A DNA stretch of 64,000 nucleotides from Pararhodobacter zhoushanensis (GTDB lineage Bacteria; Pseudomonadota; Alphaproteobacteria; Rhodobacterales; Rhodobacteraceae): contig NZ_REEZ01000005.1 of the NCBI RefSeq assembly GCF_003990445.1, positions 1-64,000 on the forward strand. The letters are read 5' to 3'. The number at the start of each line of letters is the position of its first letter. Position 1 is the stretch's first letter. The position numbers were made by a program, and so were the translations under genes. Of this stretch, positions 105-64,000 are shown one piece after another. The notes under the pieces were generated by a model. That model made no database searches. It was not told the DNA's origin and saw only the letters and a program-made list of their open reading frames with translations.

Positions 105-132
105 CAGGGGCGTATTTAGGGCAAGATGAAAG
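105..132. repeat. Composite intergenic repeat, copy a (single core arm)
   Basis: The sequence GGGGCGTATTTAGGGCAAGA and the following TGAAAG match the single-arm form of the dispersed core, compare 61506-61527. It lies ten bases beyond the stop codon of the SGNH hydrolase gene that reads leftward. No flanking hairpin module is obvious, possibly because the neighbouring insertion-sequence end truncated it. Confidence 0.5.
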
Positions 133-3135: not shown

Positions 3136-3861
3136 ATGCAGGGTCAAGGCGATGCGCTAACGTCGGATTTTGATCAGATTGCTGCGAAATACATGGCCCT
3201 GACTGATACGTCCCCGCTGCGAGATCCGCATAAACTGCCCGAGCACGAGGCGACCTATCGACGGTTGCGGGACATGGCGATGTTCGGTGAGCTGGAGCCG
3301 GGCCAGAAAGTCACCATTCAGGGGATCACGGCGGTTCTGGGCGCGGGGATGACCCCTGTCCGCGAGGCGATCCGGCGTCTGACCGCAGAGGGCGGGTTGA
3401 TCCTGCATGAAAACCGCCGGGTCTCGGTCCCGCGGCTGACGGCGTCGCAGGCCGATGAGCTGGCCTTCGCCCGTCTGGCGCTGGAGCCCCGGCTGGCCGA
3501 GCTGGCGCTGCCGCGGTTGACGGGCGTGGATATTGCCCGGCTGCAGGCGCTGGATGACGAGATCGACGAGGCCATCGAGATCAGCGATGTGCGCGGGTAT
3601 CTGGCCGGGAACTACCGCTTCCATTTTGCGCTCTATGATCTGGCCGAGGCGCCGATCCTGACGTCGCTGACCCAGTCGCTGTGGCTGCGCTTTGCGCCGT
3701 CGCTCAGGGTGGTGATGACCTGCGACGGCGAGATCGGGCCGGACCGGCACAAGGATGCCGTGGCCGCGATGCGCGCCGGTGATGCGCAGGCGCTGGCGCA
3801 GGCGATCGAGGCGGATATCCGGCAAGGCATCGACCGGGTGCGGGCGGATCTGCACGGGTGA
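3136..3861 (+). CDS. GntR-family transcriptional regulator (FadR/FCD subfamily)
   Basis: The 241-residue protein has an N-terminal winged helix (TYRRLRDMAMFGELEPGQKV...GMTPVREAIRRLTAEGGLI) and a C-terminal all-helical FCD ligand-binding domain (LEPRLAELALPRL..., YRFHFALYDLAEAP). FCD regulators usually bind small organic acids or amines with a metal. It lies directly upstream of, and co-directional with, the putrescine aminotransferase and oxidase genes, so control of polyamine catabolism is a reasonable inference. A TTG seven codons upstream is possible, but the ATG gives a normal N-terminus. Its TGA stop forms the first bases of a repeat hairpin (3859-3876). Confidence 0.85.
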   Translation: MQGQGDALTSDFDQIAAKYMALTDTSPLRDPHKLPEHEATYRRLRDMAMFGELEPGQKVTIQGITAVLGAGMTPVREAIRRLTAEGGLILHENRRVSVPRLTASQADELAFARLALEPRLAELALPRLTGVDIARLQALDDEIDEAIEISDVRGYLAGNYRFHFALYDLAEAPILTSLTQSLWLRFAPSLRVVMTCDGEIGPDRHKDAVAAMRAGDAQALAQAIEADIRQGIDRVRADLHG

Positions 3862-3987
3862 GGGGTTTCGCCCTCAGCCCCTGACGCTTTCAGCGTCATG
3901 TCTTCGGGCGACCGGGCAAGGGGGGCGTTGCCCCCCTCTTTGCTGCGCAAATTCACCCCCCAGGATATTTACGGACAGAAAATGAAG
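3859..3987. repeat. Composite intergenic repeat, copy b (type 1, single core arm)
   Basis: Reading left to right there is a hairpin TGAGGGGTTTCGCCCTCA (3859-3876) that includes the GntR stop codon, then TGACGCT/AGCGTCA (3882-3898). These are followed by GGGGGGC-GTT-GCCCCCC (3920-3936), TTGC-TGC-GCAA (3940-3950), TTCACCCCCC and the core AGGATATTTACGGACAGAAA. The same order in inverse orientation is seen at 31342-31464. It lies between the GntR gene and the aminotransferase, and its hairpins could end transcription of the regulator. Confidence 0.8.
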
Positions 3988-12297: not shown

Positions 12298-12451
12298 AGG
12301 GGGGCCTCGGCCCCCTCTGGCCGTTCCGGCCATTCACCCCCCGAGGATATTTGAAGAGCAAAGAGGGGCGTTAAGCTTTCGTTAACCGCGCCTCATTTTC
12401 TGTCTGAAAATATCCTCCGGGAGGGTCCGGGAGGGTGGAAAACCCTCCCGG
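12298..12451. repeat. Composite intergenic repeat, copy c (full inverted copy between convergent genes)
   Basis: Left module (type 1): GGGGGCC/GGCCCCC hairpin, then GGCC-GTTCC-GGCC, then ATTCACCCCCCGAGGATATT. The centre contains CGTTAACCG. The right arm, TCATTTTCTGTCTGAAAATA followed by TCC, mirrors the left core. The right flank is a 10-bp stem, CCGGGAGGGT (12427-12436) with ACCCTCCCGG (12442-12451), that ends just before the next gene's stop codon. It lies between ugpC and the convergent monooxygenase-like gene, so a two-way terminator role is plausible. Confidence 0.8.
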
Positions 12452-16804: not shown

Positions 16805-16829
16805 CACGGTTCTGTGACGGATCAGCCGA

Positions 16830-17612: not shown

Positions 17613-17635
17613 GATCTTCACTCTCTTCCTTTCGC

Positions 17636-18985: not shown

Positions 18986-18999
18986 ACCTTCAGTCTCCC

Positions 19000-19560
19000 T
19001 TAGCCGAGCTGGATGGTGGTCTCGTCCACGAACTGGACGAGAGGAATATGCAGGTTCTGCGGCGCAGGACCTTTGCGGATACGGCCAGCCGTATCGTAGT
19101 GCGAACCGTGGCAAGGGCAGAACCAGCCGCCAAAGTCGCCAGCGCCGTTGCCCAGCGGCACGCAGCCCAGGTGGGTGCACACGCCGGTCATGATCAGCCA
19201 CTCGCCGGTTTCGTCGGCAGCGCGGTTGTCATCGGTCGCTTCAGCGTTGGGTTTGTTTGCGTTCTCGGCGCTCGTGTCGATCAGGTCGCTCATCGGCACG
19301 GCACGGGCCGCTTCGATTTCTTCGGGCGTACGACGACGGATAAACACCGGCTTGCCCAGGAAGCTGACGGTCAGCTGCGTGCCAACCGAGACACCGCTGA
19401 TATCGACAAAGATCGAGGACAGGGCCGCAACATCAGCCGAAGGATTCATCTGGTTGACCAGTGGCCAGACCACCGCGCCAGTCGCGACGACACCGGCGCC
19501 GGCTGTCGCGTAATACAGGAAATCCCGGCGAGTGCCTGCGTTGTCATCTGCGTGGGACAC
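19000..19560 (-). CDS. petA: Ubiquinol-cytochrome c reductase, Rieske iron-sulfur protein
   Basis: With the GTG start the product is 186 residues, beginning [20 protein letters not shown]. This matches the remembered Rhodobacter Rieske N-terminus ([16 protein letters not shown]). GGAGA lies six bases before this GTG but abuts the alternative ATG at 19566. A Tat-type RRDFL precedes the single anchor helix. Cluster ligands lie in CTHLGC (128-133) and CPCHGSHY (148-155). It is the first gene of the bc1 operon; cytochrome b follows after 14 bp. Confidence 0.94.
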
Positions 19561-19750
19561 GAGCATTCTCCATTTCAAGGTCATGGGTCCGGCAGATATG
19601 CCGAAACGAGCCGCAGGTCTTGCAGCTTCCAAGGCGGCTGTTTAACGGCGATTTGAACATCAGTCCAGCCGCGAAAATGGGGAATGATGCCGCACCCCGG
19701 CCCTTCAGGGCAGCGGTTGCGGCAGTGCTTGCGTGATGGTCACGCCCGCC

Positions 19751-20416
19751 TCAGATATGTCGCAAAAGCGTTCCTGCAAGGGTCGCGGCGAAGCCTGCAA
19801 AAAACAGGCCGACCCCCAGATTGATCCAGGGTGCGGCCCGCATGAACGCGCGCCCGGCGGCGGGCGTCGAAAACGCCACGGCATAAACCGCGTGAATCGC
19901 CCCGGCGACAAGGCAGGCGCCGACGCAGAGAATCGCCACATCCCAGGGCCCGGCGCGGTCTACCGGGAAGACTGCCGTCATCGTCAGCCAGGTGGTCAGC
20001 GCCTTGGGGTTCATCAGCATGATCGACATCGCGCGCAGCATGCCAGCCCTTGCAGACAGGCCGCGCTTTGCCTCGGGCGCGGGGGCTTGCCCGCGCCGCC
20101 GGGCCACCAGCCCGCTGGCCGCGCGGCGCAGGTAGCGGCTGGCGAACCAGATCAGCAGGCCGGTGGCGACGAGCGTCATCACCAGCCGTGTCGCCGGCAC
20201 CGTCACCAGCAAGGCCGCGACGCCCAGCACCATGCCAAGGCACCACAGCGTGATCGACAGCCCGGTCCCCAGCGCCGCACCCAAAGCCGCGCGACGCCCC
20301 GAGCCGATGGCCAGCGCGATGGTGTTGAGCACATTGGGCCCCGGCGTAAGCACATTCATCGCCAGAAAGGCCCAGGCCGCCAGAAACGCGGCCGGGGGCA
20401 GTAAAGTCGCGGGCAT
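19751..20416 (-). CDS. LysE/RhtB-family amino-acid exporter
   Basis: The 221-residue membrane protein has about six helices. AFLAMNVLTPGPNVLNTIAL with the PGPN motif near the N-terminus is diagnostic of LysE/RhtB translocators, and SIMLMNPKALTTWLTM is the second conserved segment. Members export amino acids such as lysine, homoserine or threonine; the substrate here is unknown. It lies between the bc1 operon and a GST gene, both on the same strand. Confidence 0.85.
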   Translation of the reverse strand: MPATLLPPAAFLAAWAFLAMNVLTPGPNVLNTIALAIGSGRRAALGAALGTGLSITLWCLGMVLGVAALLVTVPATRLVMTLVATGLLIWFASRYLRRAASGLVARRRGQAPAPEAKRGLSARAGMLRAMSIMLMNPKALTTWLTMTAVFPVDRAGPWDVAILCVGACLVAGAIHAVYAVAFSTPAAGRAFMRAAPWINLGVGLFFAGFAATLAGTLLRHI

Positions 20417-20425
20417 TTTATGCGA

Positions 20426-21046
20426 TCAGGCCGCCGGAGGAACCGTGGCCTTGGCCGAATCGCGGGCGGCGAATTTGGCCTCCCACGCGGCAAGGGTCGG
20501 GTGGGACGCGCGCCAGTCACGGTCGGCGTGGCGGAAGTCGAGATAGGTCAGCGCACAGCCCACGGCGATGGACCCCATCGTCAGCGGTCCCTCAAGATGC
20601 GCCATCCAGCGGGTTTCCAGCGCCGTCAGGCTGCGCGCGATCTTCTGCCACTGGCCTTCGATCCATGCGGCGGATTGCTGCTCGGGCGCGCGCAGCGCGG
20701 TTTCGTAGCGCATGAGGATCGCGGCATCGAGGATGCCGTCGCCGGTGGCCTCAAGCGTCAGGGTTTCCCATAGGGCCGGGGCGGCGGGATAGAGCGCCGG
20801 ACCCTTGGTCGCCTGTGCGGCGAGGTACTGGCAGATCACCCGGCTGTCATACAGCGTGCAGCCGTCGTCACGCTCCAGCGCCGGGATCTTGCCCAGCGGG
20901 TTCGCCCCGACCGGCATCGTGCCGGGATCGACCGGGGTGCCCATCGAGGGTGCAAGGGTGACGCTGTCGAGCATGCCGGTCTCGTGCAGCAGGATCATTG
21001 CTTTGCGCACATAGGGCGAGGTCGCAGAGTAGTGCAGGGTCATCAT
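20426..21046 (-). CDS. Glutathione S-transferase family protein
   Basis: The 206-residue protein has an N-terminal thioredoxin-like GST domain (LHYSATSPYVRKAMILLHET, with SPYVRK as the GSH-site loop) and GKIPALERDDGCTLYDSRVI containing the cis-Pro and the binding DSR. An all-helical C-terminal domain follows. Substrate unknown. Either of two adjacent ATGs (21046 or 21043) could start it. Ten bases separate it from the LysE gene, suggesting a shared transcript. Confidence 0.83.
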   Translation of the reverse strand: MMTLHYSATSPYVRKAMILLHETGMLDSVTLAPSMGTPVDPGTMPVGANPLGKIPALERDDGCTLYDSRVICQYLAAQATKGPALYPAAPALWETLTLEATGDGILDAAILMRYETALRAPEQQSAAWIEGQWQKIARSLTALETRWMAHLEGPLTMGSIAVGCALTYLDFRHADRDWRASHPTLAAWEAKFAARDSAKATVPPAA

Positions 21047-21204
21047 CGGCAGGGATCCAATCGCTGGCGCAAGGGTAGGGTGCGGCGAAATGTATCATGC
21101 GGGGCCCAAACGTCCATCGGTGGCGGTGGCGAAAACTTTCCGGCGGGCGGGTGAACGCCACACGGGTGCTTGAAGCGACCGGCGACAACCCGTTTACTGC
21201 GCGC

Positions 21205-21942
21205 ATGGCACGCGCGAGCAGGAAGAAGAAAAAGACCAAGGCGCCGCTAAGGCTGCTGGACCGGACCGCGCAGGCGATCCGGCGCTTGCTGCGTTGGCTG
21301 CTGCTGGGGCTGGCGGCGGGCTTTGTGCTGCTGGTGGCCTGGGTTGGGCTGTACCGTTTCGTCGATCCGCCGGGGGGCTTCTACCAGTGGGGCGAATCGC
21401 GCAAGCTGGGCGGCGTGTCCCGTGAATGGGCCGATTTCGACCAGATCGCGCCGGTCATGGCGCGCTCGGTCGTGGCGGCCGAGGATGTGAATTTCTGCCG
21501 CCACTGGGGCTTTGACATGGGCGCGATCCGCGACGCGCTGGCCGAGGGCGGGGCGCGTGGGGCGTCGACCATCACGCAGCAGGTGGTGAAGAACACCTTC
21601 CTGTGGCACGGGCGCAACATGGTGCGCAAACTGCTTGAGGCAGTGCTGACGCCGGTGGTCGAACTGCTCTGGCCCAAGGAGCGTATCCTAGAGGTTTACC
21701 TCAATATCGCCGAGTTCGATCAGGGCGTGTTCGGGGTTCAGGCCGCCGCGCAACGGTATTTCGGCGTCGATGCCTCGGATCTGAGCGCGCGGCAGGCTGG
21801 CTTGCTGGCCGCCCTGCTTCCCGCGCCGCAGGATCGCGACGCGGCGCGGCCGAGTGAGTTCATGCGCCGCAGGGCCACCTCGATCGCGGACGGGGCGGCG
21901 ACGATCGCCCGCGATGACCGCTCGTCCTGTTTCGGCGGTTGA
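21205..21942 (+). CDS. mtgA: Monofunctional biosynthetic peptidoglycan transglycosylase
   Basis: The 245-residue GT51 enzyme has a Lys-rich cytoplasmic start (MARASRKKKKTK), one membrane helix at residues 31-50, and the glycosyltransferase motif AAEDVNFCRHWGFD with catalytic Glu93. GASTITQQVVKNTFLW and KERILEVYLNIAEFDQGVFG follow. It polymerises lipid II into glycan strands and has no transpeptidase domain. The start was chosen at the Lys-rich ATG because the upstream 36 codons look non-coding; no strong ribosome site is seen. Confidence 0.92.
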   Translation: MARASRKKKKTKAPLRLLDRTAQAIRRLLRWLLLGLAAGFVLLVAWVGLYRFVDPPGGFYQWGESRKLGGVSREWADFDQIAPVMARSVVAAEDVNFCRHWGFDMGAIRDALAEGGARGASTITQQVVKNTFLWHGRNMVRKLLEAVLTPVVELLWPKERILEVYLNIAEFDQGVFGVQAAAQRYFGVDASDLSARQAGLLAALLPAPQDRDAARPSEFMRRRATSIADGAATIARDDRSSCFGG

Positions 21943-21993
21943 ATTTCCGGGGCTGCGGGTGCAAAGACAAGGAAATCCCTGACCCCCAGCACC

Positions 21994-22671
21994 ATGCACT
22001 CACCCGTCGTCCATCTGCACCACGTCCCGTTGTCCCCGTTCTGCCGCAAGGTTCGCCTGACGCTGGCCGAAAAGCGCATACCCTTCACCACCAAGGAAGA
22101 GCGCTATTGGGAGGGTGGCACCGAGTTCCTGCGCCTGAACGCGGCGGGCAAGGTGCCCATCGTGCGCTATGACGGGCGGCTGTTGTCGGAAAGTCAGGCG
22201 ATCTGCGAATTCATCGACGAGGTCCATGTCGACCCGCCCCTGATGCCCGACGACCCGGCGGGCCGCTACGAAGTGCGCCGTCTGTGCGCGTGGTTCGACG
22301 ACAAGTTCCATTCCGAGGTCACGGCGAACCTGCTCTATGAGCGGGTGAACAAGAAGATCACCGGGCAGGGCTATCCCGACAGCCAGAAGATCAAGACCGG
22401 CTCGACGCGGATCAAGTTCCATCTGGACTATATGGGCTGGTTGCTGGAGCACCGCCGCTGGCTGGCCGGCAGTGCGCTGTCGCTGGCCGATTTCGCGGCG
22501 GCGGCGCATCTGAGCTGTCTGGACTATATCTCGGACGTGGACTGGGAGCGCGCCCCGGCGGTCAAGGCCTGGTACGCGACGATCAAGTCGCGCCCGGCGT
22601 TCCGGCCTTTGCTGACCGATCAGGTTCCGGGCTTTCCGCCACCGCGCCGCTATGCCGATCTGGATTTCTGA
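21994..22671 (+). CDS. fzlA: GST-fold FtsZ-binding protein FzlA-like
   Basis: The 225-residue GST-like protein has HHVPLSPFCRKVRLTLAEKR, GKVPIVRYDGRLLSESQAIC, KKITGQGYPDSQKIKTGSTR and a C-terminal QVPGFPPPRRYADLDF. These match the alphaproteobacterial FzlA pattern as I remember it. In Caulobacter FzlA binds FtsZ, curves its filaments and links Z-ring to septal wall synthesis, and does not act as a GST. The adjacent mtgA (peptidoglycan synthesis) fits a division setting. An unrelated GST remains possible. Confidence 0.72.
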   Translation: MHSPVVHLHHVPLSPFCRKVRLTLAEKRIPFTTKEERYWEGGTEFLRLNAAGKVPIVRYDGRLLSESQAICEFIDEVHVDPPLMPDDPAGRYEVRRLCAWFDDKFHSEVTANLLYERVNKKITGQGYPDSQKIKTGSTRIKFHLDYMGWLLEHRRWLAGSALSLADFAAAAHLSCLDYISDVDWERAPAVKAWYATIKSRPAFRPLLTDQVPGFPPPRRYADLDF

Positions 22672-22684
22672 GGCTGGTAGCGGC

Positions 22685-22776
22685 GCGCTTCGGGGGCATC
22701 GAGCCCCCTCAGCGCGCGCAGGGGGCGCTGCCCCCTACGGCCTGCGGCCTACCCCGGGGATATTTGGTGAGCAAAG
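22685..22776. repeat. Composite intergenic repeat, copy d (type 2, single core arm)
   Basis: An outer GCGCT/AGCGC stem (22685-22689, 22711-22715) and a TC/TC internal loop enclose an inner GGGGGC-ATCGA-GCCCCC hairpin (22692-22708). A second hairpin AGGGGGC-GCT-GCCCCCT follows (22720-22736), then CCCCGGGGATATTTGGTGAG. It fills the gap between fzlA and queG and ends at the queG start codon. Confidence 0.78.
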
Positions 22777-23802
22777 ATGGGGCTGACCGCCGCCTTGCGC
22801 GCGCAGGCGTTGGTGGAGGGGTTTTCGGCAATGGGCGTGACGCGCCCGGATGCGGTGCCCGAGATCGCAGGGCGGCTGGCGGCGTTTGTCGCCGAGGGGC
22901 GGCACGGGCAGATGGGCTGGATGGCCGAGCGCATGGCCTGGCGCGGCGATCCGGCGGCGCTGTGGCCTGAGGCGCGCTCGGTGGTGATGCTGGCCGAGGT
23001 GTATTCGCCCGACGATGATCCCCTGGCGGCGATTGAACGGCGCGAGGCCGGGGCGATCAGCGTCTATGCGCGCAACCGCGATTATCATGATGTGGTGAAG
23101 AAGCGGCTCAAGCGGTTGGGGCGGTGGCTGATCGAGGAGGCGGGCGGCGAAATCAAGGTGTTCGTCGATACCGCGCCGGTGATGGAAAAACCGCTGGCGG
23201 CGGCGGCGGGGTTGGGCTGGCAGGGCAAGCACACCAATCTGCTCAGCCGCGAGTTGGGCAACTGGTTCTTTCTGGGCGCGATCTTTACCACGCTTGAGCT
23301 GGAGGTGGATGCACCGGGGCGCGAGTCCTGTGGTTCGTGCACCGCCTGTCTGGACGCCTGCCCGACCAAGGCCTTCCCTGCGCCGTTCCAGCTGGATGCG
23401 CGGCGGTGCATTTCTTATCTGACGATTGAGCATCATGGGCCGGTTGACCCTGAGCTGCGGCCCCTCTTGGGCAACCGCATCTATGGCTGCGACGATTGTC
23501 TGGCCGTCTGTCCGTGGAACAAGTTCGCTGCCACCGCCCGCGAGGCGAAATACGCCGCGCGCGCGGATCTGGTCGCGCCGCCCTTGGCCGAGCTGGCGGG
23601 GCTGGATGATGCCGCGTTCCGGGCGAAATTCTCGGGCTCGCCGATCAAGCGGATCGGGCGGGACCGCTTTGTGCGCAACGTGCTCTATGCCATCGGCAAC
23701 AGCGGCGCGCCGTCTCTGGCCGGGGCGGCGCGCGCGCTGGAGCATGATCCCGATCCGACGGTCAGGGATGCCGCCGTGTGGGCGCTGTCACGGTTGCAGT
23801 AG
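22777..23802 (+). CDS. queG: tRNA epoxyqueuosine(34) reductase QueG
   Basis: The 341-residue protein has the QueG pattern: [40 protein letters not shown] (cobalamin and catalytic region), [18 protein letters not shown], then two 4Fe-4S motifs [16 protein letters not shown] and [16 protein letters not shown]-terminal HEAT-like repeat ([13 protein letters not shown]...) is present. It reduces epoxyqueuosine to queuosine in tRNA using cobalamin. The ATG directly abuts the composite repeat, so the ribosome site would be GGTGAG within the repeat. It overlaps the next gene tail to tail by 15 bases. Confidence 0.93.
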
Positions 23803-24657
23803 CGCCATCGCCTGCGGCCAGGCCTGCGGGTCGGCCACCGTCTTGTCACGGCAGAACGGGTTGCAAAAGCCGATGACCTGCCCGTCGATACGGGCGAAAT
23901 CGGTGACGGGTTTGCCGGAATAGGGACAGGCGGCGTTGATCGAGGGGCCGTCGCAGGCCTCGGCCGCCAGCGGCGCGGGGCCGGGCCAGGGGCGGCGCGG
24001 GTAATCGCGGTCGTAGAACGGCTGATCCGCGCCATCGACCAGACCCATCGCCCGCCAGCGCCGGAACGGCCCATGCGCCAGATGCGCGTCGACATAGGCC
24101 TGCGCTTGGGCGCTCACCGGCAGGCCATAACCTGCGATGCGCCCGGCGACCGGCGCGAAGAACGCATCCGCCGCGCTGTAGTCACCGCAGAGCCACGGCC
24201 CCTGCGCCCCGGTTTCGCGCCGCGCCCAGGACCAGAGCAGATCCAGCCGCGCCAGATCGTCCAGCACCGCCTGCGGTGGGGCGCAGTCGCTATAGCTGAC
24301 GCGCAGGTTCATCGGGCAATGGCTGCGCAGGGCGGTGAAGCCTGCGTGCATCTCGGCCACCAGCGCGCGGGCGATGGCGCGCGCCTTGGGGTCGGCGGGC
24401 CAGTGCCCGGCTTGCGGGTGGCGGGTCGCCAGTTCCTCGGCGATCGCCACGCTCTCGGGGATCACCACCCCCTCGGGCAGGCGCAGGGCCGGAACGGTGC
24501 GCGCCGGGAAGAACCCCTCAAGCGTCTGCGCAAAGCCCGGCTCGTACAGCCGGGTCAGGGTCAGGCGGGGCGTCAGTCCAAAGGCGGCAAACAGTAGCCA
24601 GCCGCGCAGGGACCAGCTGGAATAGCCACGGTCGGCGATGCACAGATCATAACTCAT
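23788..24657 (-). CDS. Glutathione S-transferase with C-terminal Cys-rich domain
   Basis: The 289-residue protein is longer than a usual GST (about 200-220). Residues 1-205 are GST-like ([37 protein letters not shown]). Residues 240-289 form an extra module, [20 protein letters not shown] then FCNPFCRDK, with Cys244, Cys265 and Cys269 and a final DPQAWPQA. This resembles a YHS/TRASH-like metal-binding knuckle. I infer a metal- or redox-sensing appendage; the substrate is unknown. It is convergent with queG and divergent from rpoH. Confidence 0.75.
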
Positions 24658-24807
24658 TCGGGGGCACTCTCTTTGGGTCCTGACAGCATGCCCTGAACGC
24701 TATTCCGGCTCAAATCAGGATTTGTGGGCTGATTCATGTGTTTTTTCGATGATCGGTTGAACCAAACCGGGGGGGTGCGCGTAGTCCTTACGCAACAGGA
24801 GGCGATG

Positions 24808-25686
24808 ATGGCACTCGACAGCACGGGAACCGACCGGATGGCGCGTCAGGCGATGCGCGCTGAACTTCTGGATGCCGAGACCGAAGCGGCGCTCGCGCGC
24901 GCCTGGCGCGACGAGCGTGATGAGCGGGCGCTGCACCGGCTGGTGACGGCGTATATGCGCCTCGCGATCTCGATGGCCTCGCGCTATCGCCGCTATGGCG
25001 CGCCGATGGGCGATCTGATCCAGGAGGCCGGTCTGGGCCTGATGAAAGCGGCCGAGCGGTTTGACCCGGATCGCGGCGTGCGCTTCTCGACCTATGCGGT
25101 GTGGTGGATCAAAGCCTCGGTGCAGGATTTCGTCATGCGCAACTGGTCGATGGTGCGCACCGGCTCGACCACCAGCCAGAAATCGCTGTTCTTCAACCTG
25201 CGCCGCGTGCAGGCCGAGCTGGCGCGCGAGGCGCGGCAACTGGGGGAAGACCCGCGCCCCGAAGAGCTGCTGCAACGCGCTGCCGAGCGGATCGGCGTGC
25301 CGATGCATGACGTGCTGATGATGGATGGCCGACTGTCGGGCGGTGATTTCTCGCTCAACGCCAAGCCTTCGGGCGATGACGACGGCCAGGAATGGATCGA
25401 CACGATCGAGGATGACAGCACGCTGCCCGGCGAAAGCGTCGCGCATCGTCATGACACGCTGGTGTTGCGCGACTGGCTGGCCGAGTCGCTGGCCGCGCTG
25501 AACCCGCGCGAACGGGCGATCGTGGCGGCGCGCAAGCTGGAAGACGAGCCGCGGACGCTGGAGGCCCTGGGGCAAGAGTTGGGGCTGTCGAAAGAGCGGG
25601 TCCGGCAGATCGAAGCGGCGGCGCTGGCCAAGATGAAGCACGATCTTGTCAGCCGCGCACCGGGGGTCTACGCCTTTTTGGCATGA
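24808..25686 (+). CDS. rpoH: RNA polymerase sigma-32 factor RpoH
   Basis: The 292-residue sigma-70 family factor has region 2 (DLIQEAGLGLMKAAERFDPD, FSTYAVWWIKASVQDFVMRN), the RpoH box QKSLFFNLRR that defines heat-shock sigma factors, and region 4 (LGQELGLSKERVRQIEAAAL). Rhodobacter-type organisms carry two RpoH proteins, the second serving photo-oxidative stress. The neighbouring GST is compatible with that second type, but assignment is inferred. ATG 24808 is five bases after AGGAGG; the ATG at 24805 is only two. It overlaps chaN by four bases. Confidence 0.92.
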   Translation: MALDSTGTDRMARQAMRAELLDAETEAALARAWRDERDERALHRLVTAYMRLAISMASRYRRYGAPMGDLIQEAGLGLMKAAERFDPDRGVRFSTYAVWWIKASVQDFVMRNWSMVRTGSTTSQKSLFFNLRRVQAELAREARQLGEDPRPEELLQRAAERIGVPMHDVLMMDGRLSGGDFSLNAKPSGDDDGQEWIDTIEDDSTLPGESVAHRHDTLVLRDWLAESLAALNPRERAIVAARKLEDEPRTLEALGQELGLSKERVRQIEAAALAKMKHDLVSRAPGVYAFLA

Positions 25687-26480
25687 GACATGCCCTATAC
25701 CTGATTCTTTTAGTCGCCATGCCCGCCGGGGCGCAGCCGATCCCTGAAACCACTCTCGATGCCCTGCCGCCTGCGCAGATTACTGTGCTGGGCGAAGTGC
25801 ATGACAACCCCCAGCACCACCGCAATCAGGCGCGCGCGATCACCGCGATCCGCCCGGCGGCGGTGGTCTGGGAGATGCTGACGCCCGATCAGGCCGCCCA
25901 GATGCCTGCCGACCGCAGCGATTTCGCAACCGTTGATGCCGCTTTGGGCTGGGACGGTTCGGGCTGGCCCGATTTCGCCCTCTATTTCCCCATCGTTCAG
26001 GCCGCCGGTGATGCGCGCCACTACGGCGCCGCCGTGCCCCGCCCCCAAGCGCAGCGCGCCTTTGCCGAGGGGGCAGCGGCGGTCTTTGGTCCAGAAGCCG
26101 CGCGCTTTGCCCTCGATCAACCGCTCTCTGAGGCCGAGCAGAACCAGCGCGAAGCTGAGCAGTTCGACGCCCATTGCGAAGCGATGCCGCGCGACCTGAT
26201 GTCCGGCATGGTCGAAGCCCAACGCCTGCGTGATGCGTCGCTTGCGCGCGCCGCCCTACAAGCGCTGGCCGACACCGGCGGCCCCGTCGTCGTGATCGCT
26301 GGTACCGGCCACAGCCGCACCGACTGGGGCGCACCCGCCGCCATCGCCTCCGCTGCGCCCGACTTCAGCGTCTTCGCGCTTGGCCAGATGGAAGCCGATC
26401 CTGACGCCAACGCCCCTTGGGACGCCTGGATCGTCACCCCACCGACCGAGCGCCCGGACCCCTGCGAGGCGTTCCGCTAA
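25683..26480 (+). CDS. ChaN-like haem-binding/iron-regulated protein
   Basis: The 265-residue protein has the signal peptide MRHALYLILLVAMPAGAQ. The mature domain ITVLGEVHDNPQHHRNQARA, VVWEMLTPDQAAQM and GPVVVIAGTGHSRTDWGAP is the ChaN/EreA-like fold with conserved Glu, His and Asp. Campylobacter ChaN binds haem and is a lipoprotein; here no lipobox Cys is seen, so a soluble periplasmic protein is predicted. The four-base ATGA overlap with rpoH implies coupled expression and possible stress control. Confidence 0.78.
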   Translation: MRHALYLILLVAMPAGAQPIPETTLDALPPAQITVLGEVHDNPQHHRNQARAITAIRPAAVVWEMLTPDQAAQMPADRSDFATVDAALGWDGSGWPDFALYFPIVQAAGDARHYGAAVPRPQAQRAFAEGAAAVFGPEAARFALDQPLSEAEQNQREAEQFDAHCEAMPRDLMSGMVEAQRLRDASLARAALQALADTGGPVVVIAGTGHSRTDWGAPAAIASAAPDFSVFALGQMEADPDANAPWDAWIVTPPTERPDPCEAFR

Positions 26481-26500
26481 CCACATCTCGCGGCTCGCAC

Positions 26501-26594
26501 ATCATCTGTCCCTAAATATCCACGGAGGGTGTCCAGAGGGGGGAGCGTGCTCCCCCCTCTGGCGAGGGGGCGCGGGGGGCGAGCAGCCCCCCGC
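26501..26594. repeat. Composite intergenic repeat, copy e (type 3, single core arm)
   Basis: ATCATCTGTCCCTAAATATC and CACGGAGGG form the core. A long hairpin follows: CCAGAGGGGGGAGC (26533-26546) with GCTCCCCCCTCTGG (26549-26562). Then come GCGAGGGGG and a second hairpin, GCGGGGGGC-GAGCA-GCCCCCCGC (26572-26594). The same order in inverse orientation is seen at 61441-61522. It lies 20 bases after the chaN stop and could act as its terminator. Confidence 0.78.
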
Positions 26595-26738
26595 CTCTGC
26601 CAGCAGCAAGCGGCGAAAAAGCCACAGGCCCCTGTTGCAACCTCTCGAAATGCCACCGTTTTTCTGGACCTGAGCGCAAACGCGCGTTATCCTCGCTCGA
26701 AAGCGGGGCGACACGATCCCGTCGATATGAGGCAGTCC

Positions 26739-27917
26739 ATGGCATTTCCTGAGCGGTTTTCGAACCTGCCAGAGTACGCATTTCCGCGTCTGCGCGCGTT
26801 GCTCGATCCCTATGAACCGGGGGGCGAGCCTATTGCGATGACCATCGGCGAGCCGCGTCACGCGATGCCGCCGTTTCTGGCCGAGGTGCTCACCGCCAAT
26901 ATCGCGGGATTCGCGAAGTATCCGTCCAACGACGGCACGCCCGCTTTGCTGGGGGCGATTTCCGCGTGGCTCAAGCGGCGCTACCGCGTCGAGATCGGCA
27001 CCGACCGGCTGATGGTGCTCAACGGCACGCGGGAGGGGCTGTTCAACGCCGCCCTCGCCCTGTCGCCCGAGCGCAAGAAGGGGGGCCAGCCGGTCATCCT
27101 GACGCCCAACCCCTTCTATCAGGTCTATGCCATCGCCGCGCTGACCGCCGGGGCCGAGCCGGTCTATGTGCCCGCCACCGCCGCCACCGGCCATCTGCCC
27201 GATTATACCAGCCTGCCGCCCGCGCTGCTGGACCGCGTCACCATCGCCTATCTGTGCTCGCCAGCCAATCCGCAGGGCGCGGTGGCCAGCCGCGACTACT
27301 GGGCGGCGCTGCTGGCGCTGGCCGAAAAGCACGATTTCCGCATCTTCGCGGATGAATGTTATTCCGAAATTTACCGCGACACGCCGCCGCCGGGCATTCT
27401 GGAGGTCGCGCAGCAGATCGGGGCGGACCCCGAGCGCGTGGTGTCGTTCCATTCGCTGTCGAAGCGCTCGAACCTGCCGGGCCTGCGCTCGGGCTTTGTG
27501 GCGGGCGGGCCTGCCTCGATCAAAGCGATCCGCCAGTTGCGCGCCTATGCCGGTGCGCCCCTGCCTGAACCCTTGCAAGCCGTTGCCGCCGCTGCCTGGG
27601 CCGATGAGGCGCATGTCGATGTCAGCCGCGCGCTCTATCAGCGCAAATACGCGGTGGCCGATGAGATCTTTGGCGGTCTGAACGCCTATCTGCCGCCCGA
27701 GGCAGGCTTTTTCCTGTGGCTGCCGGTCGCCGATGGCGAAGCGGCAACCGTGAAACTCTGGCGCGAAACCGGTCTGCGTGTGCTGCCGGGCGCTTATCTG
27801 TCACGAGACGTTGCGGGTGAGAACCCCGGCGCGGGATACATCCGCGTGGCCCTTGTCGGCCCCGAGGACGAAACCCGCCGCGGCCTGAACAGGCTGCGTA
27901 CCTGCCTTTATGCGTGA
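26739..27917 (+). CDS. dapC: Class I/II aminotransferase, probable N-succinyldiaminopimelate aminotransferase (DapC-like)
   Basis: The 392-residue fold-type I enzyme has [76 protein letters not shown] (PLP Asp/Tyr) and the Schiff-base Lys in [17 protein letters not shown]. This pattern is shared with proteobacterial DapC in lysine/meso-diaminopimelate synthesis. Other aminotransferases of the group cannot be excluded. ATG 26739 follows GAGG by five bases; the frame remains open into the upstream repeat but that part is not coding. It ends 7 bp before the ftsK start. Confidence 0.72.
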
Positions 27918-27924
27918 GGACCCG

Positions 27925-30900
27925 ATGGCCAGCTATCCCAGCCCCCAACGCGAACCCCTGCTCGACCGCCGCCTGCAAGCGGTGCTGAACCAACGTGGCA
28001 AGGAATTGCTCGGCCTGTGCCTGATCGGCCTGGGGCTGATCCTGGCGTTGGTGCTGGGCTCTTATTCTCCCGAGGATCCCTCGTGGATGGCCGCCACCGA
28101 TGCCCCGGTGCACAATGCGCTGGGCCGTGTCGGCGCGGCGCTGGCCGCGCCTTTGGTGACGATCACCGGCAAGGGGGCCTGGGGTCTGGCGCTGGCGCTG
28201 GGGGTCTGGGGCCTGCGTCTGGTGATCCATCAGGGCGAAGAAAACATCATGGGCCGCTCGCTGTTCGTGCCGGTTGCCATTGCGATGGGGTCGGTCTGGC
28301 TGGCCTCGCTGGTGGTGGGGCCGGGCTGGTCGCAGAACTTCGGTCTGGGCGGCATGTTCGGCGATACCGTGCTGGCAGCGGTGATGACCACGCTGCCGAT
28401 GACCACCACGGTGGCCAATATCGTCACGTTGCTGAGCTTTGCAGCGGCGGTTGCGCTGTATCTCTATGTGCTGGGCTCGTCGGTGTCCGAGCTGATCCGC
28501 ATCGCTCAGTTCCTGCTGTCGGGTCTGATCCTGACCTATGCCGGGCTTTTGTCGGTGCTTGGCCTGTCGGCCCGGGGCGTCGGCGGTCTGGCGGCACGCG
28601 GTCACGACCAGTGGCAGTCCCGCCGCGAGACGCGGGCGCAGGCCCGCGCCGCAGCCGAGCACGCGCTGACGCAGTATCAGCCGTGGGAAGAGCCGGCCGC
28701 CCCGGTCTGGCACGCGCCCGAACCGCAGCGCGCGCCGCTGCGCGCCCAGCGTCACGCGACGCCGGACCCGCGCGGCTATGGCCATCCGGCCGAACCTCAG
28801 GTCAGTGCGCGCCGTGCAGCTCCGCCGTCGGATTGGCAGCCTGACCCCTACGCCGCCTATGACGACGAGCCGGACTATACCCCCGATTACGCGCCCTATG
28901 ACGACCGGCCTGCCCGTGCCGCGCAGCACGCCGCACCCCGCCGCGCCGAGGCCCCTGCCTATAGCGCCGAGCCGCCGCAAAGCTGGTCGCAGCCGGACCG
29001 TCAGGGTGTTCTGGGCCGCGTCGCCAGCCTTGGCCGCCGTCCCGAGGCTCCGCAGCAGCCGCCCGCCCGGCAGACCCGTACGGACTGGGCGATGCCTGAG
29101 GGCGAGCTGATCGAGCCGCATTTGTCCGATCCGGCCCAGCAGGCCGAGCGTCCCAGCCCCGAAGGTCTGCGCGCGCGCATCGCCGAGCTGATGACCTCGC
29201 GCACCCGGGCCAAGCCGGTGCTGCGCTTCGATCCCGAAGCCTATCCCAGCAAGCGTGCGAAACCCGCTGCTCAGGAACCCGTGCAACAGGCCGAACCGCC
29301 CCTGACCGGCGGCCGCCGCGAACCTGTGCTGACCGGTCCGGCCGAACCCGCGCCGATGGGCTATGCATTCAGTCACGCGTTCGGCTACCAGCCCGCGCCA
29401 GCGCCTGCGGCCTATCCCGGCGCGTTCGCGCCCGAGACCGCGCGTGCTCCGGTCCGCGCTGCCAGCCCGGCGCCGTCGCAGGATGTTCTGATCGACGATG
29501 ATCAGGATGACTACGACGATTATGACGACCGCTATGATGCGCCGCCGCCGCGTGCCGGGCTTGACCCTGAAACCCGGCCTGCGCCCAGTGCCAGCATGGC
29601 GCGACGCACGCCGGTCCCCTCGCGCCGCGCGCAGGCCGAAGCGCAACCGGTTCTGCCGTTCGAGCCGCCCAGCGACGGGTTCGAACTGCCCCCGCTTGCG
29701 CTGCTGCGCGATCCGCGGCTTGAGCAGCGTCAGGTTGTCTCGCAGGACGCGCTGGATCAGAACTCGCGCATGCTGGAAAGCGTGCTGGAAGATTACGGCG
29801 TGCGCGGCGATATCGTCGATGCGCGCCCCGGCCCGGTGGTCACACAGTACGAGCTGGAACCGGCACCGGGCCTCAAGGCCAGCCGGGTGATCGGCCTGTC
29901 GGATGATATCGCCCGCTCGATGTCGGCGCTGTCCGCGCGGGTGTCGACGGTGCCGGGCCGCTCGGTCATCGGGATCGAGCTGCCCAACGCCCACCGCGAA
30001 ACCGTGGTGCTGCGCGAGATCCTGTCGACCCGCGATTTCGGCGACAGCACGATGCGGCTGCCGCTGGCGCTGGGCAAGGATATCGCCGGGGATCCGGTGG
30101 TGGCCAACCTCGCCAAGATGCCCCACCTGCTGATCGCAGGGACCACGGGCTCGGGTAAATCGGTGGCGATCAACACGATGATCCTGTCGCTGCTCTACAA
30201 GCTGACGCCGGCTGAATGCCGCCTGATCATGATCGACCCCAAGATGCTGGAACTCAGCATCTATGACGGCATCCCGCACCTGCTCTCGCCCGTGGTGACC
30301 GATCCCAAGAAAGCCGTCGTGGCGCTGAAATGGGTCGTCGGCGAGATGGAAGAACGCTATCGCAAGATGTCCAAGACCGGCGTGCGCAACATCGAGGGCT
30401 ATAACGGCCGGGTGCGCGAAGCGCTGGCCAAGGGTGAGATGTTCAAGCGCACCGTGCAGACCGGGTTCGACGATGAAACCGGCGATCCGGTGTTCGAGAC
30501 CGAAGAATTCGCACCCGAAGTGCTGCCGTTCATCGTGGTGATCGTGGACGAGATGGCCGACCTGATGATGGTCGCGGGCAAAGAGATCGAAGCCTGCATC
30601 CAGCGTCTGGCGCAGATGGCGCGGGCGAGCGGCATCCACCTGATCATGGCGACGCAGCGCCCGTCCGTGGACGTGATCACCGGCACGATCAAGGCCAACT
30701 TCCCCACCCGGATCTCGTTCCAGGTGACGTCGAAGATCGACAGCCGGACGATCCTTGGTGAGCAAGGGGCCGAGCAACTGCTGGGTCAGGGCGATATGCT
30801 CTATATGGCGGGCGGATCGAAACTGACCCGCGTGCACGGGCCGTTCGTGTCGGATGCCGAGGTCGAGGAAATCGTCGCGCATCTGAAGAGCTACGGTGAG

Positions 30901-31185
30901 CCGGACTACGTCAACAGCGTCCTCGACGGCCCGGATTCCGAGCGAGAGGCGGATATCGACGCGGTGCTGGGGCTGGGCGATTCCGGCGGCGAAGACGCGC
31001 TCTACGATCAGGCGGTGGCGATCGTCGCGCGGGACCGCAAATGCTCAACCTCGTATATCCAGCGCAAACTGGGCATCGGCTATAACAAGGCCGCGCGTCT
31101 GGTCGAGCAGATGGAGGACGAGGGGGTTGTGTCTACCGCCAACCACGTCGGCAAACGCGAGATCCTGGTGCCCGAGGCGCATTGA
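27925..31185 (+). CDS. ftsK: DNA translocase FtsK
   Basis: The 1086-residue protein has about four N-terminal membrane helices (first near [20 protein letters not shown]) to about residue 220, then a roughly 370-residue Pro/Ala/Gln- and Asp/Tyr-rich linker. The motor domain has Walker A GTTGSGKS at residues 739-746, Walker [15 protein letters not shown], and [20 protein letters not shown]. The C-terminal gamma winged helix ([20 protein letters not shown]) reads KOPS sites. FtsK couples septation to chromosome-dimer resolution. ATG 27925 follows GAGG at proper spacing; an ATG five codons earlier overlaps dapC. Confidence 0.96.
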
Positions 31186-31198
31186 GCGCGGAGGGTGC

Positions 31199-31464
31199 GG
31201 CGCTCGGGGGCATCGAGCCCCCTCGCGCCGCCCGGGCTGCCGCCCGGACCTGCTTCAAGGGGTGCGCACGCGCCCCCCTTGAAAATCCCCCCGTGGATAT
31301 TTTCAGACAGAAAATGAAACAGGGTTAACGAACCCTTATCATCTGTCCTTAAATATCCTGGGGGGTGAATTGGCCGTCAGGCCAAGAGGGGGGCAAGGCC
31401 CCCCTGCCCGGTCGCCCGAGGGCGCGGCGGCGGCAGCCGTCTCGGATGAGGGCGAAACCCCTCA
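31199..31464. repeat. Composite intergenic repeat, copy f (largest full copy, convergent ftsK/pncA junction)
   Basis: The left module (type 2) is GGCGC-TC-GGGGGC-ATCGA-GCCCCC-TC-GCGCC at 31199-31229, then CCGGGC/GCCCGG. The core has CCCCCCGTGGATATTTTCAG and ACAGAAAATG, then GGGTTAACGAACCC in the centre, then CTGTCCTTAAATATCCTGGG. The right module (type 1) is TGAAT, TGGCC-GTCA-GGCCA (31371-31384), AGAG, GGGGGGC-AAG-GCCCCCC, and a final hairpin (31447-31464) that contains the pncA stop codon. No gene lies here. Confidence 0.85.
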
Positions 31465-32070
31465 CCCCTGAAGCGAAACCCCAACCGCGCGCATCTGGTC
31501 CAGCGCGGTTGCCAGCGAGCCCTCCAGATCAATGCCGCGGCAGGCATCGAGGCGGACGGTCACTGCGTAACCCAGTCGAGCGGCGTCCAGCGCCGAGTAG
31601 GCGACGCAAAAATCGGTGGCGAGGCCGGCCAGCGTCAGCGTGGTCACTCCGCGCGACCGCAAATAGCCGTCCAGTCCGGTTGGCGTCACCTTGTCGTTCT
31701 CGAAGAAGGCAGAATAGCTGTCGATCGCCGGGCGGAAGCCCTTGCGGATCACCAGATCGGCGCGGTCCGTGTGCAGCCCCGGATGAAACGCCGCTCCCGT
31801 GCTGCCCTGCACGCAATGCACCGGCCACAGCACCTGCGGGCCATAGGGCATCCGGGTCATCGAATAGGGTGCGGCCCCCGGATGGCTGGCGGCAAACGAG
31901 CTATGGTCCGCCGGGTGCCAGTCCTGCGTCAGCACGCGCACCGTGAATTCGTCCAGCAGGGCGTTGATCGGCGCGACCACCGCCTCCCCGTCGGCCACGG
32001 CCAGCGCGCCACCGGGGCAGAAATCGTTTTGCACGTCGATGGCGATCAGGGCGTGGGTATCGGGCTGCAT
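31462..32070 (-). CDS. pncA: Nicotinamidase PncA
   Basis: The 202-residue isochorismatase-fold enzyme has ALIAIDVQNDFCPGGALAV with the catalytic Asp, TQDWHPADHSSF metal ligands, VIRKGF with the catalytic Lys, and LATDFCVAYSALDA with the nucleophilic Cys. HCVQGSTGAAFHPGL is also typical. It converts nicotinamide to nicotinic acid in NAD salvage. Its stop codon is part of the outer hairpin of repeat copy f. It is divergent from the LysR gene. Confidence 0.93.
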   Translation of the reverse strand: MQPDTHALIAIDVQNDFCPGGALAVADGEAVVAPINALLDEFTVRVLTQDWHPADHSSFAASHPGAAPYSMTRMPYGPQVLWPVHCVQGSTGAAFHPGLHTDRADLVIRKGFRPAIDSYSAFFENDKVTPTGLDGYLRSRGVTTLTLAGLATDFCVAYSALDAARLGYAVTVRLDACRGIDLEGSLATALDQMRAVGVSLQG

Positions 32071-43151: not shown

Positions 43152-44647
43152 GCGAATTCTCCTTGGACCCACCAGCCGGGGTCTTGCGGGGTGAAAAACA
43201 GCCACAACCGAGGGCCCTCGACCGTGTCGATGCGCCAGTAATCGCGCACGCCGCTGCGCCAGCCGGGATCGTCCAGCCACCATTCGGGCGTCAGACGTTC
43301 TGGCCCGGTGGTGCGCGCGGCGGTCAGCGCGCGCCGCCGCCAGCGAAAGCGCTGCGGCGGGCCCGAGGCCCGCAACCCGATCAGGGGCTCGGGCGGGAAC
43401 AACACCAAAGGGCGGTCAGGACCGGGGGGCCAGGCGGCAGCGCCGGGGGCCTCGGTATAGGCGGCGGCAGCGATCTGGAAGGCACGCTCGGGGATATGGC
43501 TGTCGGCGGGCAGGAAGCGGGTCAGCGCCTCCAGCCCCAGCCGGTTGCCCAAGCGCGTCATCAGATCGGCCAAAGCGTCTGAATCCGTGGTGCCGCGCGC
43601 GCCCGCGCCCTGTGTGCCGGTGACCTGCGCGGGCGGCAGGGATTCCACCAGCGGCGCGGTCAGCCGCATGGCGTCAAAGCCGAAACCGGCATCCAGCGCC
43701 TCGACCGCGCGCGCGAAGAGCGCGGCCATGGCCGGCGCGTCACGCATCGGGCGGGCGAGGGCGATCTCGGCCTCGGCCCGCGTGCCGTCGCTGCGCTGAA
43801 GCTCCAAATGCAGGCGGCGCGCGCCGTGCTCCTCGGCGCTCAGCCGGGCGCAGAGCCGCACCAGCAGCCGTTCCAGACCCGCCATTACATCGGTGGCCAG
43901 ACCAATCGGCTCGGGCAGGTTGAGGCGGATGGCATAGGGCGCGTCCTCGGGCGGGGCGGCAACCGGCTCGCCCACCGCGCCAATGGCTTGATCATAGCGC
44001 AACAAGAGATCGCCGCCAAAGCGCCGGGCCAGCGTGGCGCGGGAGGCGCGGGCCAGATCCTGCACCTGCCGGATCCCGAGGCGCGACAGCGGCAGGCAGA
44101 TCTCGGCAGGCAGGCGCAAGGCCGCCAGCGGCAGCGCAGCGATCGCCTCGCGCGCCTCGGCGGCCAAGGTCACCGGGGCCGGGGCATGGCGCGCCAGGCC
44201 CCAGGCCGCGCCGCGTGTGGGCGCCACGGCGACCCGCGTCTCGAACCCCATATCGGCCAGCCGCGCGCGCATGTCACGCACCAGCGCGGCCTCCCCGCCC
44301 CACAGATGTGCCGCGCCGCTCAGATCCATCACCAGCCCGTCACTGCCATCGACGGCAATCCACGGTGCATAGCGCAACGCCCAGCGGCGCAGGCCGTTGA
44401 GCGCCTTGAGGGGCCACTCGGGATCGTAAGGCCGGGTGGTGAGCGTCGGCAAAAGCGTGCGCGCCTCGGACAGCGATTGCCCCCGGCGCACCCCCAGTGC
44501 CTCGGCCGAGTGGCTGAGACAGGCCAACACGTCACCCCGCCCCTGCCGCGCGATCAGCGCAAACGGGGTTTTCAGGGCCTTCTCCCGCCGCTGGTGCACA
44601 TCGCTGGCCAGCCGGGGAAGGAACAAGGACAGGGTGCGCGGCTCCAT
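43148..44647 (-). CDS. imuB: Y-family polymerase-like mutagenesis protein ImuB
   Basis: The 499-residue protein resembles Y-family polymerases (RTLSLFLPRLASDVHQRREK, AWIAVDGSDG-type palm segment PWIAVDGSDGLVMDLSGAAH, LGIRQVQDLARASRATLARR) but lacks the full acidic catalytic triad. It has the ImuB C-terminus with RLWLFFTPQDPGWWVQGEFA. ImuB is an adaptor that brings DnaE2 to the beta clamp. A LexA box lies 13 bases before its start. imuA, usually first in such operons, is absent here. Confidence 0.9.
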   Translation of the reverse strand: MEPRTLSLFLPRLASDVHQRREKALKTPFALIARQGRGDVLACLSHSAEALGVRRGQSLSEARTLLPTLTTRPYDPEWPLKALNGLRRWALRYAPWIAVDGSDGLVMDLSGAAHLWGGEAALVRDMRARLADMGFETRVAVAPTRGAAWGLARHAPAPVTLAAEAREAIAALPLAALRLPAEICLPLSRLGIRQVQDLARASRATLARRFGGDLLLRYDQAIGAVGEPVAAPPEDAPYAIRLNLPEPIGLATDVMAGLERLLVRLCARLSAEEHGARRLHLELQRSDGTRAEAEIALARPMRDAPAMAALFARAVEALDAGFGFDAMRLTAPLVESLPPAQVTGTQGAGARGTTDSDALADLMTRLGNRLGLEALTRFLPADSHIPERAFQIAAAAYTEAPGAAAWPPGPDRPLVLFPPEPLIGLRASGPPQRFRWRRRALTAARTTGPERLTPEWWLDDPGWRSGVRDYWRIDTVEGPRLWLFFTPQDPGWWVQGEFA

Positions 44648-44659
44648 TGCTCCTGACGT

Positions 44660-44674
44660 GTTCGCTATATGTTC
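44660..44674 (-). promoter_or_regulatory. LexA (SOS) box upstream of imuB-dnaE2
   Basis: GTTC (44660-44663), seven bases, GTTC (44671-44674): the alphaproteobacterial LexA operator GTTC-N7-GTTC, read GAAC-N7-GAAC in the direction of imuB, 13 bases before the ATG. LexA bound here should repress imuB-dnaE2 until DNA damage. Confidence 0.9.
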
Positions 44675-44720
44675 TCATCTAGCGCGGCCAGGAAAACGAG
44701 TCGAGTCAGGGGGGAGGGGC

Positions 44721-44910
44721 GGCGCTCGGGCCCATCGAGGGCCCTCGCGCCGCTCGGGGGCGCTGCCCCCGCCGGACCGTGCCGGCCCGCCCCCGGGATA
44801 TTTCAGGCATAAAGTTGCAGGTTAACAAACCGTTAACGCCCAACTTTATGCTGCAAATATCCTCGGGGGGTGAATTCGGCTTTAGCCGAAGAGGGGGGCC
44901 GAGGCCCCCC
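44721..44910. repeat. Composite intergenic repeat, copy g (full copy; fills most of 44648-44973)
   Basis: This is the main content of the only gene-free stretch above 300 bases. Left module (type 2): GGCGC-TC-GGGCCC-ATCGA-GGGCCC-TC-GCGCC at 44721-44751, then CGGGGGC-GCT-GCCCCCG. Core: CCCCCGGGATATTTCAGGCA, TAAAGTTG, GTTAACAAACCGTTAACGCC, CAACTTTATGCTGCAAATAT and CC. Right module (type 1): TGAAT, TCGGCT-TT-AGCCGA (44876-44889), AGAGGGGGGCC-GA-GGCCCCCC. It separates the convergence-free junction of the spermidine synthase gene (ending) and imuB (starting), both on the minus strand. No other gene is seen in the stretch. Confidence 0.83.
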
Positions 44911-44973
44911 TGAACGCACGAAAAGGAACGCGCGCGGGCGTGCCCGCGCGCTCAGGTCAGATCCTGCGGAAAC

Positions 44974-61440: not shown

Positions 61441-61522
61441 TTGGGGGGCTGCTCGCCCCCCAAACCCCCTCGCCCAAGGGGGCCACGGCCCCCTTGGGGA
61501 ACCCCGTGAGTATTTGGAACAA
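61441..61522. repeat. Composite intergenic repeat, copy i (type 3, single core arm, inside the glc operon)
   Basis: TTGGGGGGC-TGCTC-GCCCCCCAA (61441-61463), then CCCCCTCGC, then CCCAAGGGGGCC-AC-GGCCCCCTTGGG (61473-61498), then CCCCGTGAGTATTTGGAACA. It is the inverse of copy e with both stems altered but paired. It begins three bases after the glcD stop and precedes glcE. Confidence 0.78.
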
Positions 61523-63999: not shown

Positions 64000-64000
64000 G

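Follow-up and report, generated by a model that had tools for sequence, protein, structure and literature searches.

Dispersed composite repeats at gene 3′ ends of Pararhodobacter zhoushanensis, with terminator-like geometry and an association with chromosome breakpoints

In the sequences compared here, a family of repeats located at gene ends in Pararhodobacter zhoushanensis is associated with breakpoints of gene order, and one relocated block of 31 kb is bounded by these elements in both of the genomes in which it was followed. The intergenic element at positions 31,199–31,464 of the window (the whole stretch of DNA analysed, 64,000 nucleotides long) is one member of the family. With confidence a little above even, the elements are read as BIME-like, terminator-type repeats at gene 3′ ends which serve as recombination joints.

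The half-unit of the family is arranged in the order of GC hairpins, C-run, GGATATTT, a spacer of three bases (N3) and a body. Its 5′ part opens with a hairpin containing a G-run and a C-run, to which another small hairpin is often added, and closes with a second C-run; between the latter and GGATATTT stands G(A/T), G or A, by which the core given in the earlier sequence-only reading, CCCC(C/G) plus a fixed sequence, is corrected. In the form adopted for the best explanation, the core is GGA(G)TATTT, followed by three unconstrained bases and a body rich in purines, and the main body kinds are three, namely GACAGAAAATG, GAGCAAAGA(TG) and GCATAAAGTTG. The upstream modules, assigned by simple text rules, fall into at least four types (A–D) and not into the three proposed before. 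A full element is defined as two inverted half-units whose core starts are 25–90 bp apart; the spacing is 62–73 bp in 39 of the 40 full elements and 49 bp in the remaining one. When the eight full elements with an untyped arm are left out, exactly one A module is present in 29 of the 32 typed ones (16.2 expected), and the body types of the two arms agree in 28/40 (17.5 expected) and differ in 12/40. The N3 spacers of paired half-units are identical in only 3/40, with a mean of 0.9 of 3 bases in agreement, which is the chance level. A single long stem is therefore not simply what is selected, and the idea of a purely palindromic stem under selection is not supported. The half-unit consensus contains neither a GTAG nor a CGTC tag. 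A small hairpin, GAGGGGTTTCGCCCTC, recurs 5′ of some units (window 31440–31470 and 3862–3880; L200).

Of the nine copies listed for the window by the sequence-only reading, seven have weight-matrix scores above 10, one (61441–61522) is a variant with a score of 8, and one (105–132) is below 4. The seven solid copies (3.9, 12.3, 22.7, 26.5, 31.2, 44.7 and 59.0 kb) make up 11 half-units, and the description of two inverted cores around a GTTAAC-bearing centre is right for all four of the copies that had been called full. The features are as follows:

31199..31464, no strand assigned: full element, B arm left, A arm right (from cores on both strands, gene ends and families)
31295..31302, plus strand: core GGATATTT, then body GACAGAAAATG (weight-matrix scan)
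31351..31358, minus strand: inverted core, body GACAGATGATA (weight-matrix scan)
12298..12451, no strand assigned: full element, A arm left, D arm right; convergent junction; centre TTAA-N7-TTAA
44721..44910, no strand assigned: full element, C arm left, A arm right; CATAAAG bodies; centre TTAA-N7-TTAA
58972..59134, no strand assigned: full element at a convergent junction; left core GGATACTT
3859..3987, plus strand: single half-unit (A), behind a plus-strand gene
22685..22776, plus strand: single half-unit (C); body AAAGATG
26501..26594, minus strand: single half-unit (B), antisense to the preceding gene; non-colinear joint against genome G187
61441..61522, plus strand: variant half-unit CCCCGTGAGTATTTGGAACAAGATGATG, score 8
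105..132, plus strand: doubtful remote variant GCGTATTTAGGGCAAGATGAAA, below score 4, read by eye

The element at 31199..31464 lies between the convergent ftsK gene (ending at 31185) and a nicotinamidase-like gene (3′ end at 31462), and its RNA fold has a z of −7.8. The 26.5-kb copy is one half-unit only, and the 61.4-kb copy is a GAGTATTT variant, one of two such variants in 619 kb of own sequence. At 22.7 kb (window 22758–22780), the next gene seems to take its start codon from the half-unit body, here AAAGATG, in three species. A TPP riboswitch (RF00059, 73.5 bits) lies at window 12851–12957, ahead of the gene at 12990.

The abundance of the repeat was compared with several controls. In the 64-kb window, CCCCSGGATATTT with at most two mismatches has nine matches where 1.88 are expected, and none of 100 shuffles of the window reached nine or more. 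Across the 4.83-Mb genome, the pattern GGATATTT-N(2-12)-ACAGAAAATG has 66 matches and its reversed control none. The strict half-unit pattern has 135 matches in the whole genome and none for its reversed control, which confirms that the family is real and not a set of chance GC-rich matches. A 32-column weight matrix gave 75 matches with scores above 14 in 464 kb of own sequence; in Markov resamplings of the same sequence (three resamplings per round, three rounds), the best score was 2.9. In 619 kb of own sequence, the weight matrix found 129 units and the strict pattern 86, and from this ratio, together with the 135 strict matches genome-wide, roughly 200 units per genome are estimated. At the gathering score, Rfam contains no family for the element, its sole match in the window being the TPP riboswitch, so that a known RNA family is ruled out as the identity of the element. 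Two full elements (L172 1437–1509 and L176 1425–1500) match mir-5615 at 38 and 40 bits, where the gathering score is 82, and this likeness is probably a chance resemblance of hairpins. No description of the repeat was found in the open literature searched, which omits most subscription papers, and a Rhodobacter-type repeat family is absent from the available parts of PMC3733652, PMC12306157 and PMC1590033. In a plasmid search, two Paracoccus records had about 55 bases in common with the element at 88%.

Genes were called by a script based on codon usage, so gene starts are approximate. All 129 units found in the 619 kb fall outside called genes; 80 of them stand in inverted pairs and 49 are single. 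At least one neighbouring gene ends toward the unit in 47 of the 49 singles, and the other two lie between divergent genes. In the window together with C12:50001-210000, units are carried by 11/14 convergent and 15/42 co-directional junctions of 100–400 bp, and by only 2/32 divergent junctions of at least 40 bp; the pieces of contig 12 and C1 were picked as rich in hits, and the window was not. The upstream gene reads toward the unit in 35/49 singles and 61/80 paired units of the 619 kb; in the window and C12 alone, the corresponding figures are 12/20 (no bias) and 15/20 (a weak bias). Among the 32 singles facing an opposing gene end, that end is at most 40 bp from the core start in 22. The suggestion of a structured 3′ element is thus supported, units being placed at gene ends and rarely at divergent junctions, and full elements having a terminator-like geometry.

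Gene ends were scanned for terminator-like geometry, defined as a hairpin with a folding energy of −8 kcal/mol or lower and a T-rich stretch behind it, and the scan was repeated at −12. At −8, full elements were positive at 18/22 convergent and 6/9 co-directional gene ends, and sense half-units at 11/13 and 9/11, respectively (20/24 together); the counts for unit-free ends were 12/26 and 22/97, and those for antisense half-units 5/13 and 0/8 (5/21 together). At −12, full elements gave 10/22 and 4/9, sense half-units 11/13 and 8/11 (19/24 together), unit-free ends 10/26 and 19/97, and antisense half-units 3/13 and 0/8. With 10/22 against 10/26 at the stricter limit, the contrast for full elements at convergent ends hinges on the hairpin limit, while sense half-units remain high. 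For several full elements the scan picked up the element's own centre as the hairpin, with the reverse complement of the partner arm's body as the T-stretch; for a few, it counted a hairpin outside the element. Over the 40 full elements, the bodies contain on average 5.6 A and 5.7 T in 11 positions, compared with 1.8 expected. Taken by itself, the centre has little folding stability (mean −5.4 kcal/mol, z −1.6), and the hairpin of body, centre and body has a mean z of −3.8 over the 40 elements, 28 of which are below −2 (single-base shuffles).

Two face-to-face half-units give the succession of A-rich body, centre and U-rich body, with which the full element would end transcription from both sides, as a bidirectional intrinsic terminator separating adjacent transcription units. 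The sequence-only reading had found no fit to a single Rho-independent terminator; this is fair as to form, yet the full element has such geometry in both directions. Bidirectional Rho-independent terminators likewise have an A-rich stretch, a hairpin and a U-rich stretch between convergent genes, but, unlike plain ones, the present element has a sequence that is family-wide within the genome and is tied to chromosome breakpoints. RNase E cleavage sites are AU-rich according to PMC6238624, and the processing of GGAUAUUU by RNase E is put forward as an idea only; the available part of PMC7866481 contains nothing on it.

The comparison of orthologous junctions, which had been proposed as a check, revealed presence and absence of units in G098 and G187, two relatives in the genus, whose junctions with inserts of more than 1 kb were read at the ends only. 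At the 22.7-kb junction, core and body are at the same place in three species (own, G098 and G187), and the upstream modules differ. In L012, the single units at 1529 and 12606 are missing from G098 and the one at 13115 is missing from G187, which carries a GAGTATT variant at 12606. Behind the 3′ end of ftsK there are several variant units in G098 and a plain hairpin in G187. The edges of empty sites in these two genomes are too diverged for target-site duplications to be read.

Such presence and absence, the differing modules at 22.7 kb, the recurrence of about 200 bp of the element 44721..44910 at 13 other genome places (82–90% identity) and the genus-specific bodies all favour a selfish, REP/BIME- or MITE-like non-autonomous repeat moved by some enzyme, for which the 3′-end location would be tolerated insertion and the breakpoints a by-product. 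This reading is unlikely, although it keeps some weight. The Y1/RAYT transposase (PF01797), the sole transposase type searched, has no match in the own genome or in 16 others of the genus (17/19 without, 2/19 with), and 5/14 control genomes were positive; the consensus is without the tags; and the polarity of A and non-A arms is kept in most typed full elements. A RAYT-driven REP is therefore rejected for this genome, and, of the non-autonomous mobile repeat once proposed, the dispersal is supported, while the search for Y1/RAYT gave no mobilising enzyme. In E. coli and other bacteria, BIME/REP sequences are high-copy, extragenic, inverted palindromic mosaics with variable modules at gene 3′ ends, as known generally and in part from PMC2817692, and the present units resemble them in being extragenic, of high copy number and of alternating orientation (129/129 extragenic, 80 paired). 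Unlike them, the unit is longer, is bipartite (GGATATTT-N3-body) and has a CtrA-like centre. RAYT-linked REPs have a GTAG or CGTC tag beside a palindrome of 20–40 bp (tag classes from PMC3733652), and both the tag and the RAYT are lacking here.

A separate dispersed palindrome, GTAGGGTGGGGTT(C/T/G)AACCCCACCC, occurs at window 53498–53753 and at L013 11205–11325, has a GTAG head as in true REPs and is the REP-like repeat of this genome; GTAGGGTGGGG has nine matches in the 619 kb, in a genome without Y1 transposase. Genome G308 carries about 430 bp extra at window 53590–53677.

The centre of the element offers a further reading. The spaced motif TTAA-N7-TTAA occurs 27 times in the 619 kb, and no other spacing between 0 and 20 is found more than four times; 20 of the 27 motifs are inside full elements and six beside single units. 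The motif matches, as a sequence, the CtrA consensus TTAAC-N5-GTTAAC given in PMC7232146, and it is also present in elements of G185 and G200. The element might accordingly be bound by CtrA, by some other regulator or by a nucleoid protein, at sites remote from promoters, a possibility to which only a minor probability is assigned. On its side are the 26 of 27 motifs that lie at units and the identity with the consensus; against it, the exact motif is present in just 20/40 full elements and does not occur in exact form in the elements examined in G062, G018, G281 and G103 (one G062 locus has a near match), and GTTAAC is self-complementary, so that the motif may be a mere hairpin tip. In a study of a different regulator, CenR (PMC9275681), ChIP sites between convergent genes were left without further analysis, which shows that such sites can be missed. 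In such a genome, most perfect CtrA-consensus sites (26/27 in the 619 kb) may sit in these repeats and not in promoters.

The association with breakpoints is new and was not foreseen by the sequence-only reading. Six DNA queries (window 12050–32049 and 44001–64000, L012, L023, L035 and L027) were compared with G187, and a joint was called non-colinear when the flanks were on another contig, on the other strand or more than 6 kb apart; junctions within stretches absent from G187 (three unit-free, one half) were excluded. All 11 non-colinear joints, four of which (12.3, 44.7, L012 271 and L012 19067) have a flank that is short, 70%-identical or multi-copy, are at unit-bearing junctions: 9/12 junctions with full elements, 2/9 with half-units and 0/75 unit-free ones. 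The element 12298..12451 is one of these joints. Among junctions of at least 100 bp, joints are found at 9/12 full, 2/7 half and 0/20 unit-free junctions (Fisher p = 8e-6 for full versus unit-free, p = 0.07 for full versus half), only one of the 20 unit-free junctions being convergent; the eight unit-free convergent junctions of any length are all intact. The association has exceptions. Of six colinear indels longer than 1 kb against G187, three lie at a junction that carries a unit and the other three elsewhere. When block edges in G187 and G098 were read outward, 17/23 were without a unit, as were 3/6 further edges in G187, so some elements may postdate the rearrangement. An orientation change at about 47.4 kb of the window in other members of the genus (e.g., G301) is at a unit-free junction. 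In L027, a stretch of 3.7 kb missing from G187 lies between a half-unit at 7781 and a full element at 11357, and G187 carries at this site one element with variant cores between the same genes; two other L027 stretches absent from G187 are not bounded by units.

It is rather unlikely that the elements are ordinary, vertically inherited terminators and that rearrangements merely favour operon ends. The 3′-end location and the plain hairpin behind ftsK in G187, where the own genome has an element, fit this explanation; against it stand the absence of breakpoints from the 20 longer unit-free junctions (though only one is convergent, so that the explanation keeps some weight), a 31-kb block moved from element to element, and the sequence likeness of elements within one genome.

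This block was followed in G308, which is 93–95% identical to the own genome (G000). In G308 3,928,001–4,088,000, contig C23 is found reversed, then a 31-kb block of C12, then C23 again; in G000 the block is C12:97957-129130. The joint in G308 lies inside the orthologue of the C23 full element (L040), and the C12 locus of G308, without the block, is closed by one element which both flanking alignments cover. G000 thus carries a pair of full elements flanking the block and a single one at C23, and G308 carries a single one at C12 and a pair flanking the block, whose left member has a degenerate right arm; that is, each empty site has one element and each occupied site two in both genomes. Two of three right arms match the prediction of a swap (c2 105/108, d3 86/105); the third (b1), degenerate in G308, gives only 22/24, with 37/42 for E1–E3, and matches no better than others. 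The left arms are all of A type and barely discriminate (E1–E3 81/100, predicted pairs 79–85). Read by eye, the centres of E1 and F1 are equal, as are those of E3 and F0, and E2 and F2 differ; this sharing lends mild support to exchange by homology rather than at a fixed base. Of 15 full elements compared with G308, 12 are colinear and the other three all belong to one event, the apparent transfer of a chromosome segment out of one element and into another.

In integrons, attC sites are inverted-repeat sites at gene 3′ ends which bound segments able to leave and re-enter. The present element is similar in being an inverted repeat at gene 3′ ends that bounds relocatable segments, but it differs in having no fixed crossover base that was seen, and the usual sequence of the attC R-box does not fit GTTAAC. 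That the centre is the site of a dedicated recombinase, which excises and re-inserts element-bounded segments in a cassette-like manner, is improbable: one element at empty and two at occupied sites in both genomes, the second element-bounded segment (L027, 3.7 kb) and the near-fixed core spacing speak for it, but the shared centres E1/F1 and E3/F0 would put the exchanges in the arms (a weak argument, because the E3/F0 centre is also found in L036 and L037), and several genera lack the GTTAAC centre. On the weak evidence of centres read by eye, one fixed central crossover point is likewise not supported.

Under the preferred reading, that of terminator-type repeats serving as recombination joints, whole inter-element segments would be moved by homologous recombination between elements, because some 200 (estimated) similar, near-symmetric copies are present at harmless places. 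The gene-adjacent arm would tend to stay with its gene while the partner arm is exchanged. The mechanism would be of RecA type, and the elements would spread by recombination and gene conversion.

The family consists of dispersed composite repeats in many Rhodobacteraceae, placed at gene 3′ ends. The search of related Rhodobacterales, advised earlier and made here with patterns in 293 genomes of the order, showed the same layout, with different bodies, in further genera of the Rhodobacteraceae. The GGATATTT pattern has at least one match in 84/293 genomes and none in 209, many of the 84 having merely one or two matches, similar to an occasional control match. Rich in the pattern are G098 (114) and G187 (121) of the same genus, and further enriched genomes are G031 (58), G175 (67), G191 (74), G292 (31), G281 (29), G284 (25), G200 (21) and G062 (20). 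The GGAGTATTT pattern is present in 47/293 genomes and enriched in G128 (43), G103 (35), G257 (16) and G203 (12). In twenty loci of 14 genomes from 10 genera, selected by their pattern matches, the core was seen, mostly together with the grammar of C-run and hairpin, and bodies and centres differ among them. Across the 80 best loci for the ftsK/nicotinamidase junction, the ftsK end was located in part only, with other sequence behind it where read by eye; units are still visible in four of the 80 loci (Kangsaoukella, Gemmobacter, a Sulfitobacter MAG and Arenibacterium). Longer elements in G062, G072, G185 and G200 (centres of L175, L180, L181 and L182) have an inner segment CACGG(T/C)CATCGGCGTCCCCGCCTGTACCG on either strand, which no Rfam family explains. 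The uptake-sequence terminators (DUS/USS) are also dispersed motifs, often in inverted pairs at gene ends and with lineage dialects; the present family is alike in both respects, and its unit is longer.

It is an improbable extension of these results that Rhodobacteraceae chromosomes would be made of element-bounded segments, whose bidirectional terminators would also serve as recombination joints and, within this genus, as CtrA boxes, allowing whole transcription units to leave and re-enter like cassettes under a regulator of the cell cycle or of gene transfer. If the preferred reading is true, a terminator-like repeat in part of a large bacterial family would mark the places where chromosomes break and rejoin, and this would offer a testable reason why gene order is shuffled at operon ends without operons being broken.
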